DNA of 5,331 bases from Acidobacteriaceae bacterium (GTDB taxonomy: Bacteria; Acidobacteriota; Terriglobia; Terriglobales; Acidobacteriaceae), in the NCBI GenBank assembly GCA_030049955.1, contig JASIJX010000468.1:1-5331 (forward strand). The letters are read 5' to 3'. Position numbers and translations under genes: made by a program. Below, in pieces: positions 1,072 to 4,850 of the stretch. Each line of letters begins with the position of its first letter. The stretch's first letter is position 1. The notes under the pieces were generated by a model. That model saw nothing but the letters and a program-made list of their open reading frames with translations. It was not told the DNA's origin and did no database searches.

Positions 1072-2970
1072 ATGGTTTTATCCGATTTCCCTGCCTTTAC
1101 GCCACATCTTTTTGCACGCAAAAGGATGGCCCGCGGCAGCATTTTGCGGCTGGCAGCACTCACCGCGCTCACTGCAATGGGCGCAGCCGCAGCAGCCCGT
1201 GCCCAGCAGCCTGATGCGCCTCGGCATGCATCGTCGATAGCAGCATCGTCGATAGCCGCATCGTCGACAGCCGCATCGTCTCCCGCGGCCGCCTCTCCGC
1301 TGCTCGACGCGATGACCACGGAGCTGAATCGCGCCTTCAATTCGCTCGGCCATTCCGCCGCGCCGCAGCCAAAACCGGCCAGCACCAAGACGCCAGCCGA
1401 CGACAAGCAGTTGCCGCCCTACTTTCTCAGCTACACCGTACGCGACGACGAGTATGCCACCGTCACCGCGGAGTACGGCGCGCTGGTCGGCAGCTCGCAG
1501 CAGCACATGCGCCTGGCCGATGTGCAAATTCGCGTGGGCAGCCCTGAACTCGACAACACCCACGGCGAGCATCGCAGCGCCGCAGTCAACAGCAAGCAGT
1601 TGCCGCTCACTGACGACCGCGAGGCGCTGATGCGCTCCCTATGGATGGCAACCAACGAAGGCTACGGCAATGCCATCGACAACTTCCTGCGCGTGAGGAC
1701 TGAAGAGCAAGTGCGCGCCAAGGAAGAAGACACCTCTGGCGACTTCAGCCAGGAAGCGCCGCAGGTGCACATTGAAAAACCCGCGCCGGCGCTCAAGGTC
1801 GATCGCACCGCGTGGGAACAGCGGGTGCGCGCTCTTTCCACCGTCTTCCGCGACTATCCCGACGTGTACCAGAACGAAGTTATGTTCGCCGTGCAGAGCG
1901 GAACGGACTACTATGTCTCGTCCGAGGGCTCGCGCATCGTCACACCGCAACTCTCAGCCGGTGTAGTCGTAATTGCCACCACCCGCGCCGACGACGGCAT
2001 GGATCTGACGCTCTCGCGCGTCTTCCAGGCGGCGACAGCCGACGGTCTGCCCAGCCAGTCAGAGATGGAGAAATCCCTGCGCGAGTTGGCACAGCAGCTC
2101 GAAGATCTGCGCAAAGCCCCGGTAACCGAGCCGTTCGACGGGCCGGCGCTTCTCTCCGGCCGCGCCGCTGCAGTCTTCTTCCACGAGGTGCTCGGCCACC
2201 GGCTCGAAGGCCAGCGCCAGCGCGGCGACGAAGAGGGCCAGACATTCACCAAGGACCTCGGCAAGCCCGTGCTGCCCAGCTTCCTCTCCGTGGCCGACGA
2301 TCCGACGATGAGCCACTACGGCAACACCTGGCTGGCCGGAACTTACGAGTACGACAGCGAAGGCCAGAGGGCGCAGCGCGTCGAACTGGTCAAGAATGGC
2401 GTGCTCGAAAACTTCCTCATGTCGCGGCTGCCGATCGCCAGCTTCGGTCACTCGAACGGCCACGGCCGCGCGGAAGCCGGACACGTGCCCGCAGGACGGC
2501 AGGGCAACCTGATCGTGACTTCGACCAAAAGCGTGCCTGAGGCCGAGTTACGCAAGGAGCTGATCGCCGAAGCAAAGAAGCAGGGTAAGCCCTACGGCCT
2601 CTATTTCGAGGACATCTCTTCCGGCTTTGCTCTTACCACGCGCAATTCGCCGCAGGCCTTCCAGGTGATTCCGCTGGTCGTCTGGCGCGTATACGTGGAT
2701 GGCCGGCCCGACGAACTGGTGCGCGGAGTAAGCATCGTCGGCACGCCGCTAGCCGCGATGAAGAGCATCCTGGCCACGGGCAACCGCGATGAGGTCTTCA
2801 ACGGCATCTGCGGCGCGGAGTCTGGCTCGATTCCGGTAAGCGCAGTAGCCCCGGCCATGCTGCTCAGCCAGCTTGAAACGCAGCGGCAACCGCAGGGCTC
2901 CGAGCGTCCTCCGATCCTTCCCATCCCCGGCGCCAGAAACATTCCCCCCGCGACCAAGGAGGCCCAATGA
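1072..2970 (+). CDS. Exported TldD-like metallopeptidase (TldD/PmbA family), catalytic-type subunit
   Basis: This 632-residue protein is longer than E. coli TldD (about 480) because of a signal peptide, a linker and an extended N-terminal domain. The hydrophobic core is at residues 24-42, with likely cleavage at ARA/QQ after residue 44. An Ala/Ser repeat linker follows (about 53-72). The C-terminal half is clearly TldD-like: GPALLSG, then HEVLGH at 371-376 (HExxxH), LPSFLSVADDP from 401, SNGHGRAE from 461, and GICGAESGS with Cys580. As I recall, the TldD zinc is held by the HExxxH histidines and a late cysteine, so the site looks intact. TldD with TldE cleaves unfolded peptides such as the microcin B17 leader; the substrate here is unknown. 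Start 1072 has GAGG six bases upstream. Start 1126 gives a more classical signal peptide (MARGSILR) but has no spaced ribosome site; subtract 18 from residue numbers for it. The stop overlaps the next gene. Confidence 0.93.
   Translation: MVLSDFPAFTPHLFARKRMARGSILRLAALTALTAMGAAAAARAQQPDAPRHASSIAASSIAASSTAASSPAAASPLLDAMTTELNRAFNSLGHSAAPQPKPASTKTPADDKQLPPYFLSYTVRDDEYATVTAEYGALVGSSQQHMRLADVQIRVGSPELDNTHGEHRSAAVNSKQLPLTDDREALMRSLWMATNEGYGNAIDNFLRVRTEEQVRAKEEDTSGDFSQEAPQVHIEKPAPALKVDRTAWEQRVRALSTVFRDYPDVYQNEVMFAVQSGTDYYVSSEGSRIVTPQLSAGVVVIATTRADDGMDLTLSRVFQAATADGLPSQSEMEKSLRELAQQLEDLRKAPVTEPFDGPALLSGRAAAVFFHEVLGHRLEGQRQRGDEEGQTFTKDLGKPVLPSFLSVADDPTMSHYGNTWLAGTYEYDSEGQRAQRVELVKNGVLENFLMSRLPIASFGHSNGHGRAEAGHVPAGRQGNLIVTSTKSVPEAELRKELIAEAKKQGKPYGLYFEDISSGFALTTRNSPQAFQVIPLVVWRVYVDGRPDELVRGVSIVGTPLAAMKSILATGNRDEVFNGICGAESGSIPVSAVAPAMLLSQLETQRQPQGSERPPILPIPGARNIPPATKEAQ
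1228..1287 (+). repeat. 15-bp in-frame tandem repeat encoding an Ala/Ser linker
   Basis: Three units of GCATCGTCGAtAGCC (1228-1242, 1243-1257, 1258-1272) differ at only one or two bases, and a fourth, diverged unit follows (1273-1287). Being 15 bp long, each unit keeps the frame and encodes a five-residue Ala/Ser block (ASSIA type). The block sits just after the predicted signal-peptide cleavage site of the TldD-like protein, so it probably forms a flexible linker. Copy number could vary between strains by slippage without breaking the gene. Confidence 0.85.
2956..2962 (+). promoter_or_regulatory. Strong Shine-Dalgarno for the second TldD-family gene, inside the end of the first
   Basis: AAGGAGG lies four bases before the ATG at 2967 and is itself part of the last codons of the upstream gene (Thr-Lys-Glu-Ala-Gln-stop). 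Together with the ATGA stop/start overlap at 2967-2970, it indicates translational coupling, which would favour production of the two paralogues in matched amounts. It also fixes the start of the downstream gene at 2967 rather than at the in-frame ATG at 2991. Confidence 0.85.
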
Positions 2971-4703
2971 GATTCTTTTCCTCCCTCAACATGCAATGTC
3001 ATCCTGAGCGACGGCCCCGAGCGACGCGAGGGAGAGGAGCAAAGGATCTGCGGCTGCTCTTTGCCGGCGCGTGCGTAGCTTTCGCCGCCTTCTCATTCGC
3101 CGAATCCACTCCTGCCGCTGCGCAAACGCGCACCGACGCGGAAAAAGATCCCGTGCTCAAGGCCATGCTTCAGGAGATGGTGCGCAGCGCGAGCGACCTG
3201 CAATTGAAGGGCTTCGCCAAGCCGTTCTTCATCCAGTACCGCATTGAGGACGTCGACGACTTCGAAACCAAAGCCGAGTTCGGTGCAACCGAAGGCTCCT
3301 CGCACACGCACCAGCGGGTTGCGCGCGTAACCGTGCGCGTAGGCGATGCCCGCACCGACAGTTCCGGTGCGCGCGGCGACGGCGCACTGGAGATTGCAGC
3401 GCTCGACAACGATCCCGTTGCGCTGCGTTCCGCGCTGTGGCAGGCCACCGATCAGGCGTACAAAAATGCGCTGGCGGCCTACGCTCAAAAGCAGGCCGAG
3501 CTCAAGGAAGTGCAAACGCCGCCGCAGGCAGACGACTTCAGCGCCGAAAAACCGGTCATCTCGCTCGCCGATCCCGCATGCCTGAAGGTAGACGAGCCGT
3601 CGTGGGCGGAGCGCATGGCCGCGGCCAGCGGCCTGTACCGCACCAACGCTGCGGTGACCGTAAATGAGCGCGACATTGAGTATTCGAGCGCCAGCTTCCA
3701 CGCGCGCGCCATCACCACATGGCTGGTAAGCAGCGAAGGCGCCATCGTGCGCAAGGGCGCAACGCAGTTCGAGGAGTCGTTCGCCGTAGGCACGCAGGCC
3801 GCCGACGGCATGCACCTCGACCGCTCCTATGCATCAACCGGCCGCTCGGCCCAGGATCTCGACTCACCCGAAGCGTTCACCAGGCGCGAAGTCTCCGACA
3901 TCGAATCGCTGGCCGCGCTGCGCAAGGCGCCCGTAGTCGAGGACGAGTACCATGGACCGCTCCTGTTGAGCGCCGACTCCAGCACCGACACGCTGCGCGA
4001 CCTGCTGGCCACAGCCGTGGTCGCCACGCGGCCTGCGCTCGGAACCGAGATCCGCACTAATGGCCCCTTTGCTTCGAGCTTCCAAGAGCGTGTGCTGCCG
4101 CCGTTCCTCAGCGTCGTCGACGATCCCGGCCTGAAGACCTACGACGGCAAGGGACTGATCGGCACCTACGATGTGGACGACGAAGGCGTGCCCGCGCAGC
4201 AGGTGGATCTGATCCGCTCCGGACGCCTGGTGAATTACCTGATCGGCCGCCAGCCCGTGAAGGATTTTCCGCAGTCGAACGGCCACGGACGCGCAGGCAT
4301 TACCGGCGCGGCCCGGCCCAATATCTCTGTGCTGAAGATTTCGGCGCAGAACGGGCTCAGCGACGACGAGCTGAATCAGAAGCTCTTAGAACTGATGAAG
4401 GAAGACGGCCTGAAGTACGCGTACTACGCGGAGACGCTCGCCGGGGCCGGCAATCCGCGGCTGCTCTACCGCGTATATCCTGACGGTACGCGGCAACTGG
4501 TGCGCGGCGCTGAGTTGGACGACGTCGACGAACGGGCGCTGCGCTCGAGCGTAGTGGCGGCGGGCAAAAGCCTCGACGTGGCCAACTACTTTGGCGACGT
4601 CCCGCAAACGGTGCTGGCGCCAGCCCTGCTGCTGGACGATGCGACAGTGCGGCGAACCACCGATCCCAATGACAAGCTGCCGTTCTATCCTCCGCCGCAG
4701 TAA
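2967..4703 (+). CDS. Exported TldE/PmbA-like protein, predicted non-catalytic partner of the upstream TldD-like protein
   Basis: This 578-residue protein is a paralogue of the upstream protein along its length. Shared blocks include EFGA-x-x-GSS, LKVD-x-x-xWxxR, LPPFLSVVDDP, GTYDVDDEG and SNGHGRA (437-443). The block aligned with HEVLGH reads RDLLAT (344-349), so both His ligands and the catalytic Glu are gone. The late Cys of the partner is also absent: the aligned stretch reads YFGDVPQTVLAPALLL. This matches TldE/PmbA, the non-metal subunit of the TldD/TldE heterodimer, so the protein probably shapes the substrate channel. The N-terminus is odd: a roughly 29-residue Arg-rich n-region precedes a hydrophobic core (29-44), with cleavage likely near residues 44-52. 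Much of this n-region is encoded by an interspersed repeat (2997-3064). The start has AAGGAGG four bases upstream, overlaps the previous stop by ATGA, and is followed by a terminator after the gene. Confidence 0.92.
   Translation: MRFFSSLNMQCHPERRPRATRGRGAKDLRLLFAGACVAFAAFSFAESTPAAAQTRTDAEKDPVLKAMLQEMVRSASDLQLKGFAKPFFIQYRIEDVDDFETKAEFGATEGSSHTHQRVARVTVRVGDARTDSSGARGDGALEIAALDNDPVALRSALWQATDQAYKNALAAYAQKQAELKEVQTPPQADDFSAEKPVISLADPACLKVDEPSWAERMAAASGLYRTNAAVTVNERDIEYSSASFHARAITTWLVSSEGAIVRKGATQFEESFAVGTQAADGMHLDRSYASTGRSAQDLDSPEAFTRREVSDIESLAALRKAPVVEDEYHGPLLLSADSSTDTLRDLLATAVVATRPALGTEIRTNGPFASSFQERVLPPFLSVVDDPGLKTYDGKGLIGTYDVDDEGVPAQQVDLIRSGRLVNYLIGRQPVKDFPQSNGHGRAGITGAARPNISVLKISAQNGLSDDELNQKLLELMKEDGLKYAYYAETLAGAGNPRLLYRVYPDGTRQLVRGAELDDVDERALRSSVVAAGKSLDVANYFGDVPQTVLAPALLLDDATVRRTTDPNDKLPFYPPPQ
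2997..3064 (+). repeat. Interspersed TGTCATCCTGAGC...AAGGATCTGCGG repeat, copy 1, inside a coding sequence
   Basis: The left end TGTCATCCTGAGC (2997-3009) and right end AAGGATCTGCGG (3042-3053) are identical to the ends of the copy at 4791-4850. The following bases are also similar (CTGCTCTTTGCC here, TTGCTTTTCCGCC there). ATCCT near the left end and AGGAT near the right end are complementary, so the ends can pair. The 32-base middle differs from copy 2. In the reading frame of the TldE-like gene it encodes CHPERRPRAT, then RGRGAKDLRLLF, which is most of the signal-peptide n-region and the start of its core. I recall such elements being abundant in acidobacterial genomes; their mechanism of spread is not known to me. 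Confidence 0.8.
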
Positions 4704-4790: not shown

Positions 4791-4850
4791 TGTCATCCTG
4801 AGCAAGTTTGCCGCAGGCAAACGAGCGAAGGATCTGCGGTTGCTTTTCCG
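4791..4850 (+). repeat. Interspersed TGTCATCCTGAGC...AAGGATCTGCGG repeat, copy 2, intergenic
   Basis: The ends match copy 1: TGTCATCCTGAGC at 4791-4803 and AAGGATCTGCGG at 4828-4839. The middle holds a perfect 7-bp inverted repeat, GTTTGCC-GCA-GGCAAAC (4806-4822), so the element can fold as a hairpin inside the outer ATCCT/AGGAT pairing. It lies 20 bases after the terminator and well before the ThuA gene, the usual intergenic setting for such elements. Confidence 0.8.

Follow-up and report, generated by a model that had tools for sequence, protein, structure and literature searches.

What becomes of an export signal when an interspersed repeat lies in frame within it? The question is raised by a TldE-like gene in the 5,331-nucleotide stretch of acidobacterial DNA analysed here (the window), where a short dispersed repeat, F1, occupies codons close to the start. 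We consider it probable that F1 inserted in frame, is translated and is tolerated, the signal peptide having been lengthened and export kept.

Gene content of the window

The best-named homologues place the window in an acidobacterium of the Terracidiphilus kind. An M48 peptidase gene lies on the − strand; on the + strand are a TldD-like gene, a TldE/PmbA-like gene and the beginning of a ThuA-like gene, the last with a Pfam match that falls below Pfam's cut-off. The features discussed below are:

1072..2970, + strand: TldD-like metallopeptidase gene, operon partner upstream of the TldE-like gene (PF19289, E = 5.2e-28 for ORF 952–2970)
2956..2962, + strand: Shine-Dalgarno-like AAGGAGG of the TldE-like gene, the same in five of six aligned relatives
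2967..4703, + strand: TldE/PmbA-like gene, 578 amino acids (PF19289, E = 2e-14; PDB 5nj5_B PmbA, E = 0.0018)
2967..2996, + strand: residues 1–10 (MRFFSSLNMQ), occupying the n-region place of relatives, e.g. MSVNTTRPKQ
2967..3122, + strand: putative signal peptide, residues 1–52, with cleavage predicted between A-A-A and Q (feature script and codon positions)
2997..3061, + strand (exact ends 2998–3053): F1 copy in frame in the TldE-like gene, encoding CHPERRPRATRGRGAKDLRLLF
3063..3101, + strand: remaining hydrophobic core, AGACVAFAAFSFA, the first two residues of which may still be repeat-encoded
4791..4847, + strand: second F1 copy, between the TldE-like and ThuA-like genes, its core with a 7-bp perfect stem

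The gene pair resembles TldD/TldE (PmbA) in that PF19289 is found in both genes and the PDB relatives are chains A and B of 5nj5 (TldD-like protein against 5nj5_A TldD, E = 5.6e-15). Pfam reported the C-terminal domain alone for the pair; in the TldE-like protein this PmbA_TldD_3rd domain scores 53.7 bits against a cut-off of 22. HEVLGH is present in the TldD-like translation and, by eye, HExxxH occurs in this partner only, the TldE-like protein being without the metal site. Unlike TldD/TldE (PmbA), both proteins have N-terminal signal-peptide-like extensions (judged by eye for the TldD-like protein). The N-termini of relatives' TldD-like partners also look signal-peptide-like by eye, and export of the pair is therefore probably still needed. 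The TldD-like start may be ATG 1072, with GAGGA upstream, or ATG 1126; the former would give this protein a long n-region, too. Three tandem 15-nt units at 1228–1280 encode an Ala/Ser-rich SSIAA repeat near the same N-terminus.

The F1 repeat family

The first-pass annotation described 2997–3064 as an interspersed repeat that shares its ends with 4791–4850, and the search for further copies bears this out. Positions 2998–3053 and 4792–4839 (both + strand) are exact matches to GTCATCCTGAGC-N-AAGGATCTGCGG, a strict pattern with two copies in the window versus none in 200 dinucleotide shuffles. Strict copies occur in 46 of 79 related genomes (highest in G003 with 69; 54 in G361 and 19 in G002), and the reversed-pattern control gave 0 in all 79. 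The left edge of the feature had been placed at 2991; that position is the in-frame ATG of codon 9, just before the repeat, and the repeat itself does run from about 2997.

The two copies of the window and 84 more distinct copies from three related genomes (G001–G003) give a consensus, over 86 copies, that reads about TGTCATCCTGAGCG - core - GTCGAAGGATCTGCGGTTGCTTTT, with a size of about 45–75 bp. The ends were set by the search pattern used and are hence fixed in the collected copies. The cores are hypervariable (71 distinct among the 86) and mostly palindromic, with a mean longest stem of 6.24 bp versus 3.70 bp in shuffled cores; the ends pair imperfectly in predicted folds. The in-gene copy has a perfect core stem of 3 bp only and reads CTGCTCTT where the usual 3′ tail is TTGCTTTT; a core like it occurs twice in one other genome (G410). 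Two of the three forward frames are nearly always stop-free: the frame reading CHPER... in 84 of the 86 copies, that reading VILSE... in 83, and the third in 0.

Whole-genome counts of the Y1 transposase family PF01797, irrespective of F1 location, were 8 in G001, 4 in G002 and 7 each in G003 and G344. No family reached its gathering score in an Rfam search of the window. F1 was not found in the limited set of papers searched, which proves little, and the GTCATCCTGAGC string appears there only in seemingly unrelated papers; searches by word for repeats of acidobacteria, or for small dispersed ones, likewise turned up no paper.

Start of translation

The in-gene copy lies in frame within an open 578-residue ORF (2967–4703), as had been proposed, and in the CHPER frame the N-terminus of the TldE-like protein reads MRFFSSLNMQ-CHPERRPRATRGRGAKDLRLLF-AGACVAFAAFSFAESTPAAAQ. 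The ATGA at 2967–2970 overlaps the TldE-like start with the TldD-like stop. This start context is common to relatives without the segment (CAATGA in 6/6 aligned relatives; AAGGAGG in 5, AAGGGGG in L023), which supports the assignment of the start to 2967, upstream of the repeat, made in the first-pass annotation. In-frame ATG, GTG or TTG codons occur at 2967, at 2991 and next at GTG 3153, so that no usual start codon lies between the repeat and the hydrophobic core, again as claimed. Judged on these features, translation probably begins at 2967 and passes through the repeat.

Translation could instead begin inside the repeat, at CTG 3048 or another non-standard codon; F1 would then be 5′ leader only and the signal peptide short. 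Two in-frame CTG codons are present (3048 and 3054), the first with AGGAG at 3035–3039, 8 nt upstream, and the homologue P0017 seems to begin within that portion of the repeat as well. However, relatives conserve both signals of the upstream start, the ATGA overlap and the Shine-Dalgarno-like sequence, and CTG is a rare start codon. We regard such an internal start as unlikely.

Structure of the predicted signal peptide

Signal-peptide features were taken with a simple feature script, not a trained predictor, which gave features for 138 of 147 proteins (9 were left out). The n-region of the window protein has 29 residues against a median of 5 and a net charge of +6 against a median of 2, with one Glu and one Asp within it. 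The best 11-residue core has a hydropathy of 2.43 (median 2.41), and an A-x-A site is present as in 136 of the 138 proteins. By the script, the window protein thus has all the traits of a Sec signal peptide: a positive n-region, a hydrophobic core and an A-x-A site.

Most of this n-region and the first core residues are the F1 peptide CHPER...AKDLRLLF, in agreement with the earlier proposal that the repeat supplies an Arg-rich n-region and the beginning of the core (RLLF). We suggest that F1 inserted in frame a few codons past the conserved tldE-like start, between the n-region and the hydrophobic core. Its translation would contribute 22 residues, which make the n-region longer, raise its net positive charge and supply the first core residues; the remaining core and the A-x-A cleavage site are outside the repeat. 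The repeat is therefore an extension of a signal peptide and not its origin, and the 'clear case of domestication' of the first-pass annotation is overstated: a tolerated insertion suffices. Such a Sec-type signal peptide should still function, and the extra residues would be removed with it, so that the mature protein would be unchanged and the insertion probably neutral. The n-regions of signal peptides are tolerant of variation in both length and sequence; with two F1 forward frames that are nearly always stop-free, this means that such insertions can survive.

That the insertion instead spoiled export, leaving the TldE-like protein cytoplasmic or its gene decaying, seems very unlikely to us. 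The length of the n-region (29 versus a median of 5) and its Glu and Asp residues would fit a damaged signal, but the core hydropathy is at the relatives' median, the A-x-A site is present and similar insertions persist in several lineages (see below). Nor does the gene look decayed, since the 578-residue frame is intact in two records, that of the window and that of the homologue P0001.

Relatives with an empty site

The homologues P0003–P0012, 85–90% identical, are without the insertion; their signal peptides are short, and MSVNTTRPKQMIAGLSLAAVCLFAAHPATAQ is an example of their N-termini. Among the 120 homologues listed, P0001 carries the insertion and P0003–P0012 do not; no relative free of the repeat was seen with the N-terminus of the window protein. 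A protein search with residues 1–40 gave P0001 as the sole one among 6 candidates. At the DNA level, six of eight relatives chosen entered the alignment; 6/6 share the start context and show a gap of 66 columns at the repeat position. The segment has thus been inserted between the n-region and the core. P0001 differs from the window protein at 3 of 578 positions, has the same N-terminus and keeps the frame intact; it is therefore unlikely that the insertion is an assembly error peculiar to the window. DNA of the closest homologues was sought in 398 genomes of the family and 80 of the genus, and nothing nearer than 76% was found.

Apparent recurrence at TldE N-termini

The insertion of repeats seems to have recurred in relatives of the TldE-like gene. 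F1 peptides (from the G001–G003 copies) and peptides of a second family, F2 (from copies in 20 regions), were compared with 142 TldE N-termini, 5 of the 147 proteins being left out. Eight of the 142 (the window protein, P0001, P0002, P0013, P0063, P0068, P0094 and P0115) match repeat peptides better than any of the 852 reversed or shuffled controls, P0063 via an F2 peptide; P0076 is level with the best control. P0063, P0068, P0094 and P0115 are known as protein only, and in these the true start may lie after the repeat. On a tree of the protein bodies (56 rows) the eight carriers are scattered and need 7 changes, whereas the CHPER-type rows alone need 3. For this tree 7 rows had been added for their repeat-like N-termini, 4 of which are among the eight, and P0028 was left out (1 of 57). 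P0017, which falls below the best control and is not among the eight, has the N-terminus MKRGANDLRVV..., seemingly starting inside a repeat, with an n-region of normal length made of repeat sequence.

F2 is palindromic, of the form GGTGCCCCA..CT - core - AGGGTGGG; strict copies number 18 in G002, 41 in G420, 11 in G165, 1 in G344 and 2 in G003, against 0 in the reversed control. To the window's TldE junction we added 44 distinct junctions of relatives (45 in all) and scanned their DNA with up to 3 mismatches, a noisy scan with 28 matches in 254 kb versus 8 in reversed sequence. Repeats lie in the n-region in 2 of the 44 relatives' junctions and upstream only in 1 of 44 (L029, two copies, both upstream of its start). 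In G002 (L002:7773–8018) two F2 copies lie within the n-region, after the same AAGGAGG-ATGA start; in G420 (L044:1399–1566) there is one F2 copy in the n-region and the start is less certain (ATG 1399 or 1510). The same place would thus have taken up F1 again, and F2. A degenerate F2-like stretch in G165 (L026:1402–1545; MNIAQLTAMRVPHPCRAVCRKGGRI), not picked up by the junction scan, may also be in frame in the n-region. As a control gene, the TldD-like partner gave F1 or F2 in 0/30 relatives' N-termini within 420 bases (at most 2 mismatches in the longer ends); the tldE and tldD counts are small and not directly comparable, and do not mark tldE as special.

The recurrence also bears on possible positive selection of the repeat, whether for its charge or as an RNA element that tunes the translation of tldE against that of tldD. 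Such selection would suit the scattered return of two repeat families to one place, as well as the net charge of +6. Open frames point the same way in part: among 69 distinct cores, 66 and 67 were open in the two frames, and 11 and 5 of 300 dinucleotide shuffles were as high; among 38 cores compared with mononucleotide and stem-preserving shuffles, 35 and 38 were open and at most 1 of 300 shuffles was as high. In 19 cores thinned for likeness, however, the excess was gone (18 and 18 open against shuffle means of 16.7 and 17.3; 80 and 139 of 300 shuffles as high). With an excess that is weak under dinucleotide shuffling and lost after thinning, selection for open F1 frames was set aside, not disproved. 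Most homologues examined do without the repeat, and the RNA around the TldE-like start folds no better than its shuffles (z = 0.31; 129 of 200 as stable), which gives no support to an RNA element. We give positive selection little credence and retain tolerated insertion as the preferred reading.

Signal-peptide likeness among carriers with non-sister bodies

Plain independent insertion does not account for one feature of the carriers, which is the likeness of the window protein, P0002 and P0013 outside the repeat. Over the 21 residues outside the repeat up to the cleavage region, these three are mutual best matches among 131 proteins (15, 13 and 12 of 21; next 9). The first two of the 21 residues may be repeat-encoded, and an F1 copy of G320 also reads FAG. 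In two-tree AU tests, the protein bodies reject a clade of the window protein, P0001 and P0002 (p = 0.0027) and, with P0013 added, reject it again (p = 8e-57). The repeat peptide of P0002 shares 87% identity with the peptide of a G003 copy whose core type is unlike the window's.

The shared signal peptide would be explained if recombination had transferred the 5′ end and the repeat core had been exchanged; more mundanely, the P0002 and P0013 contigs may be metagenome chimeras. Tentatively, and with more doubt than belief, we propose that the tldE 5′ end is a recurrent landing and exchange site, at which F1 with the hydrophobic core is mobile as a signal-peptide module, the repeat core is swapped and F2 enters independently. 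If so, the window protein, P0002 and P0013 bear one mobile, repeat-containing signal peptide on non-sister bodies. A recombination breakpoint within the body of P0002 was sought and not seen, P0002 being nearer P0010 than the window protein in 9/9 windows of 60 columns.

Comparison with known repeats

Rickettsia palindromic elements (RPEs) inside protein genes were reportedly described by Ogata et al. in 2000. In the portions of one account drawn on here, RPEs are interspersed palindromic repeats of 105–146 bp, intergenic and intragenic, that occur in frame inside protein genes (PMC2229807). F1 is like them by description, as a short palindromic interspersed repeat in frame within a protein gene, and is set apart, also by description, by its size of about 45–75 bp, its hypervariable core, its occurrence in Acidobacteriota and its place in a signal peptide. 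Another parallel is the Yersinia gene YPO1552, where, according to the passages used, an RU-2/YPAL element forms part of the predicted N-terminal signal peptide (Delihas, 2007; PMC2759123) of a 144-residue protein that is predicted to be exported and is conserved in two species (PMC2229807). In the TldE-like gene, too, an interspersed repeat makes part of a predicted signal peptide, but repeat family and phylum are others. Unlike YPO1552, as far as these excerpts describe it, the TldE-like family has orthologous, close relatives without the insertion and some others with repeat peptides at the same place.

REP sequences have been noted at the NH2 ends of ORFs, where many may sit upstream of the true start, and two Xanthomonas species have REPs at nearly the same position of recB (PMC3733652, in the sections consulted). 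F1 shares with the REPs described there the position of a palindromic repeat at an ORF NH2 end; unlike REP families, its consensus ends, TGTCATCC... and ...GGTTGCTTTT, by inspection have neither of the defining GTAG or CGTC tags.

A repeat within a signal peptide is thus an uncommon event of a precedented kind (RPEs, Yersinia), and the newer part lies in the recurrence, the second repeat family and the candidate shared module. Here a bacterial interspersed repeat has been made part of a predicted targeting signal, apparently repeatedly, and homologues 85–90% identical are without it; the case makes testable the idea of n-regions as a safe harbour for mobile repeats. For annotation, N-terminal CHPER..., VILSEA... 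or KDLRLL in these genomes is repeat sequence: in some cases it is probably part of the protein, in others it precedes the true start and is just read through.

Other N-terminal copies of F1

In-frame N-terminal use of F1 is rare in general. For 79 of the 86 copies the flanks show no coding signal in a frame that stays open across the F1 copy. With residues 1–54 as the query against 79 genomes, 20 loci among the matches listed were inspected by eye, and none resembled a further signal peptide of this type. They comprised further F1 copies and one dehydrogenase-like protein, in which HPPxxPGATIELGAKDLRLL lies within the domain; as a candidate signal-peptide module this stretch was rejected as a chance likeness. 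In a coarse codon-score scan of the 84 copies from G001–G003, one (L062, about 2984–3180; G002:C39) was read at an N-terminus with no usual start codon after it. Here a PurN-like ORF crosses F1 in the other frame (ATG KSSNHVILSEAW...); ATG, GTG and TTG are absent between the F1 copy and the PurN-like domain. If L062 is translated in this way, tolerance of F1 extends beyond signal peptides.
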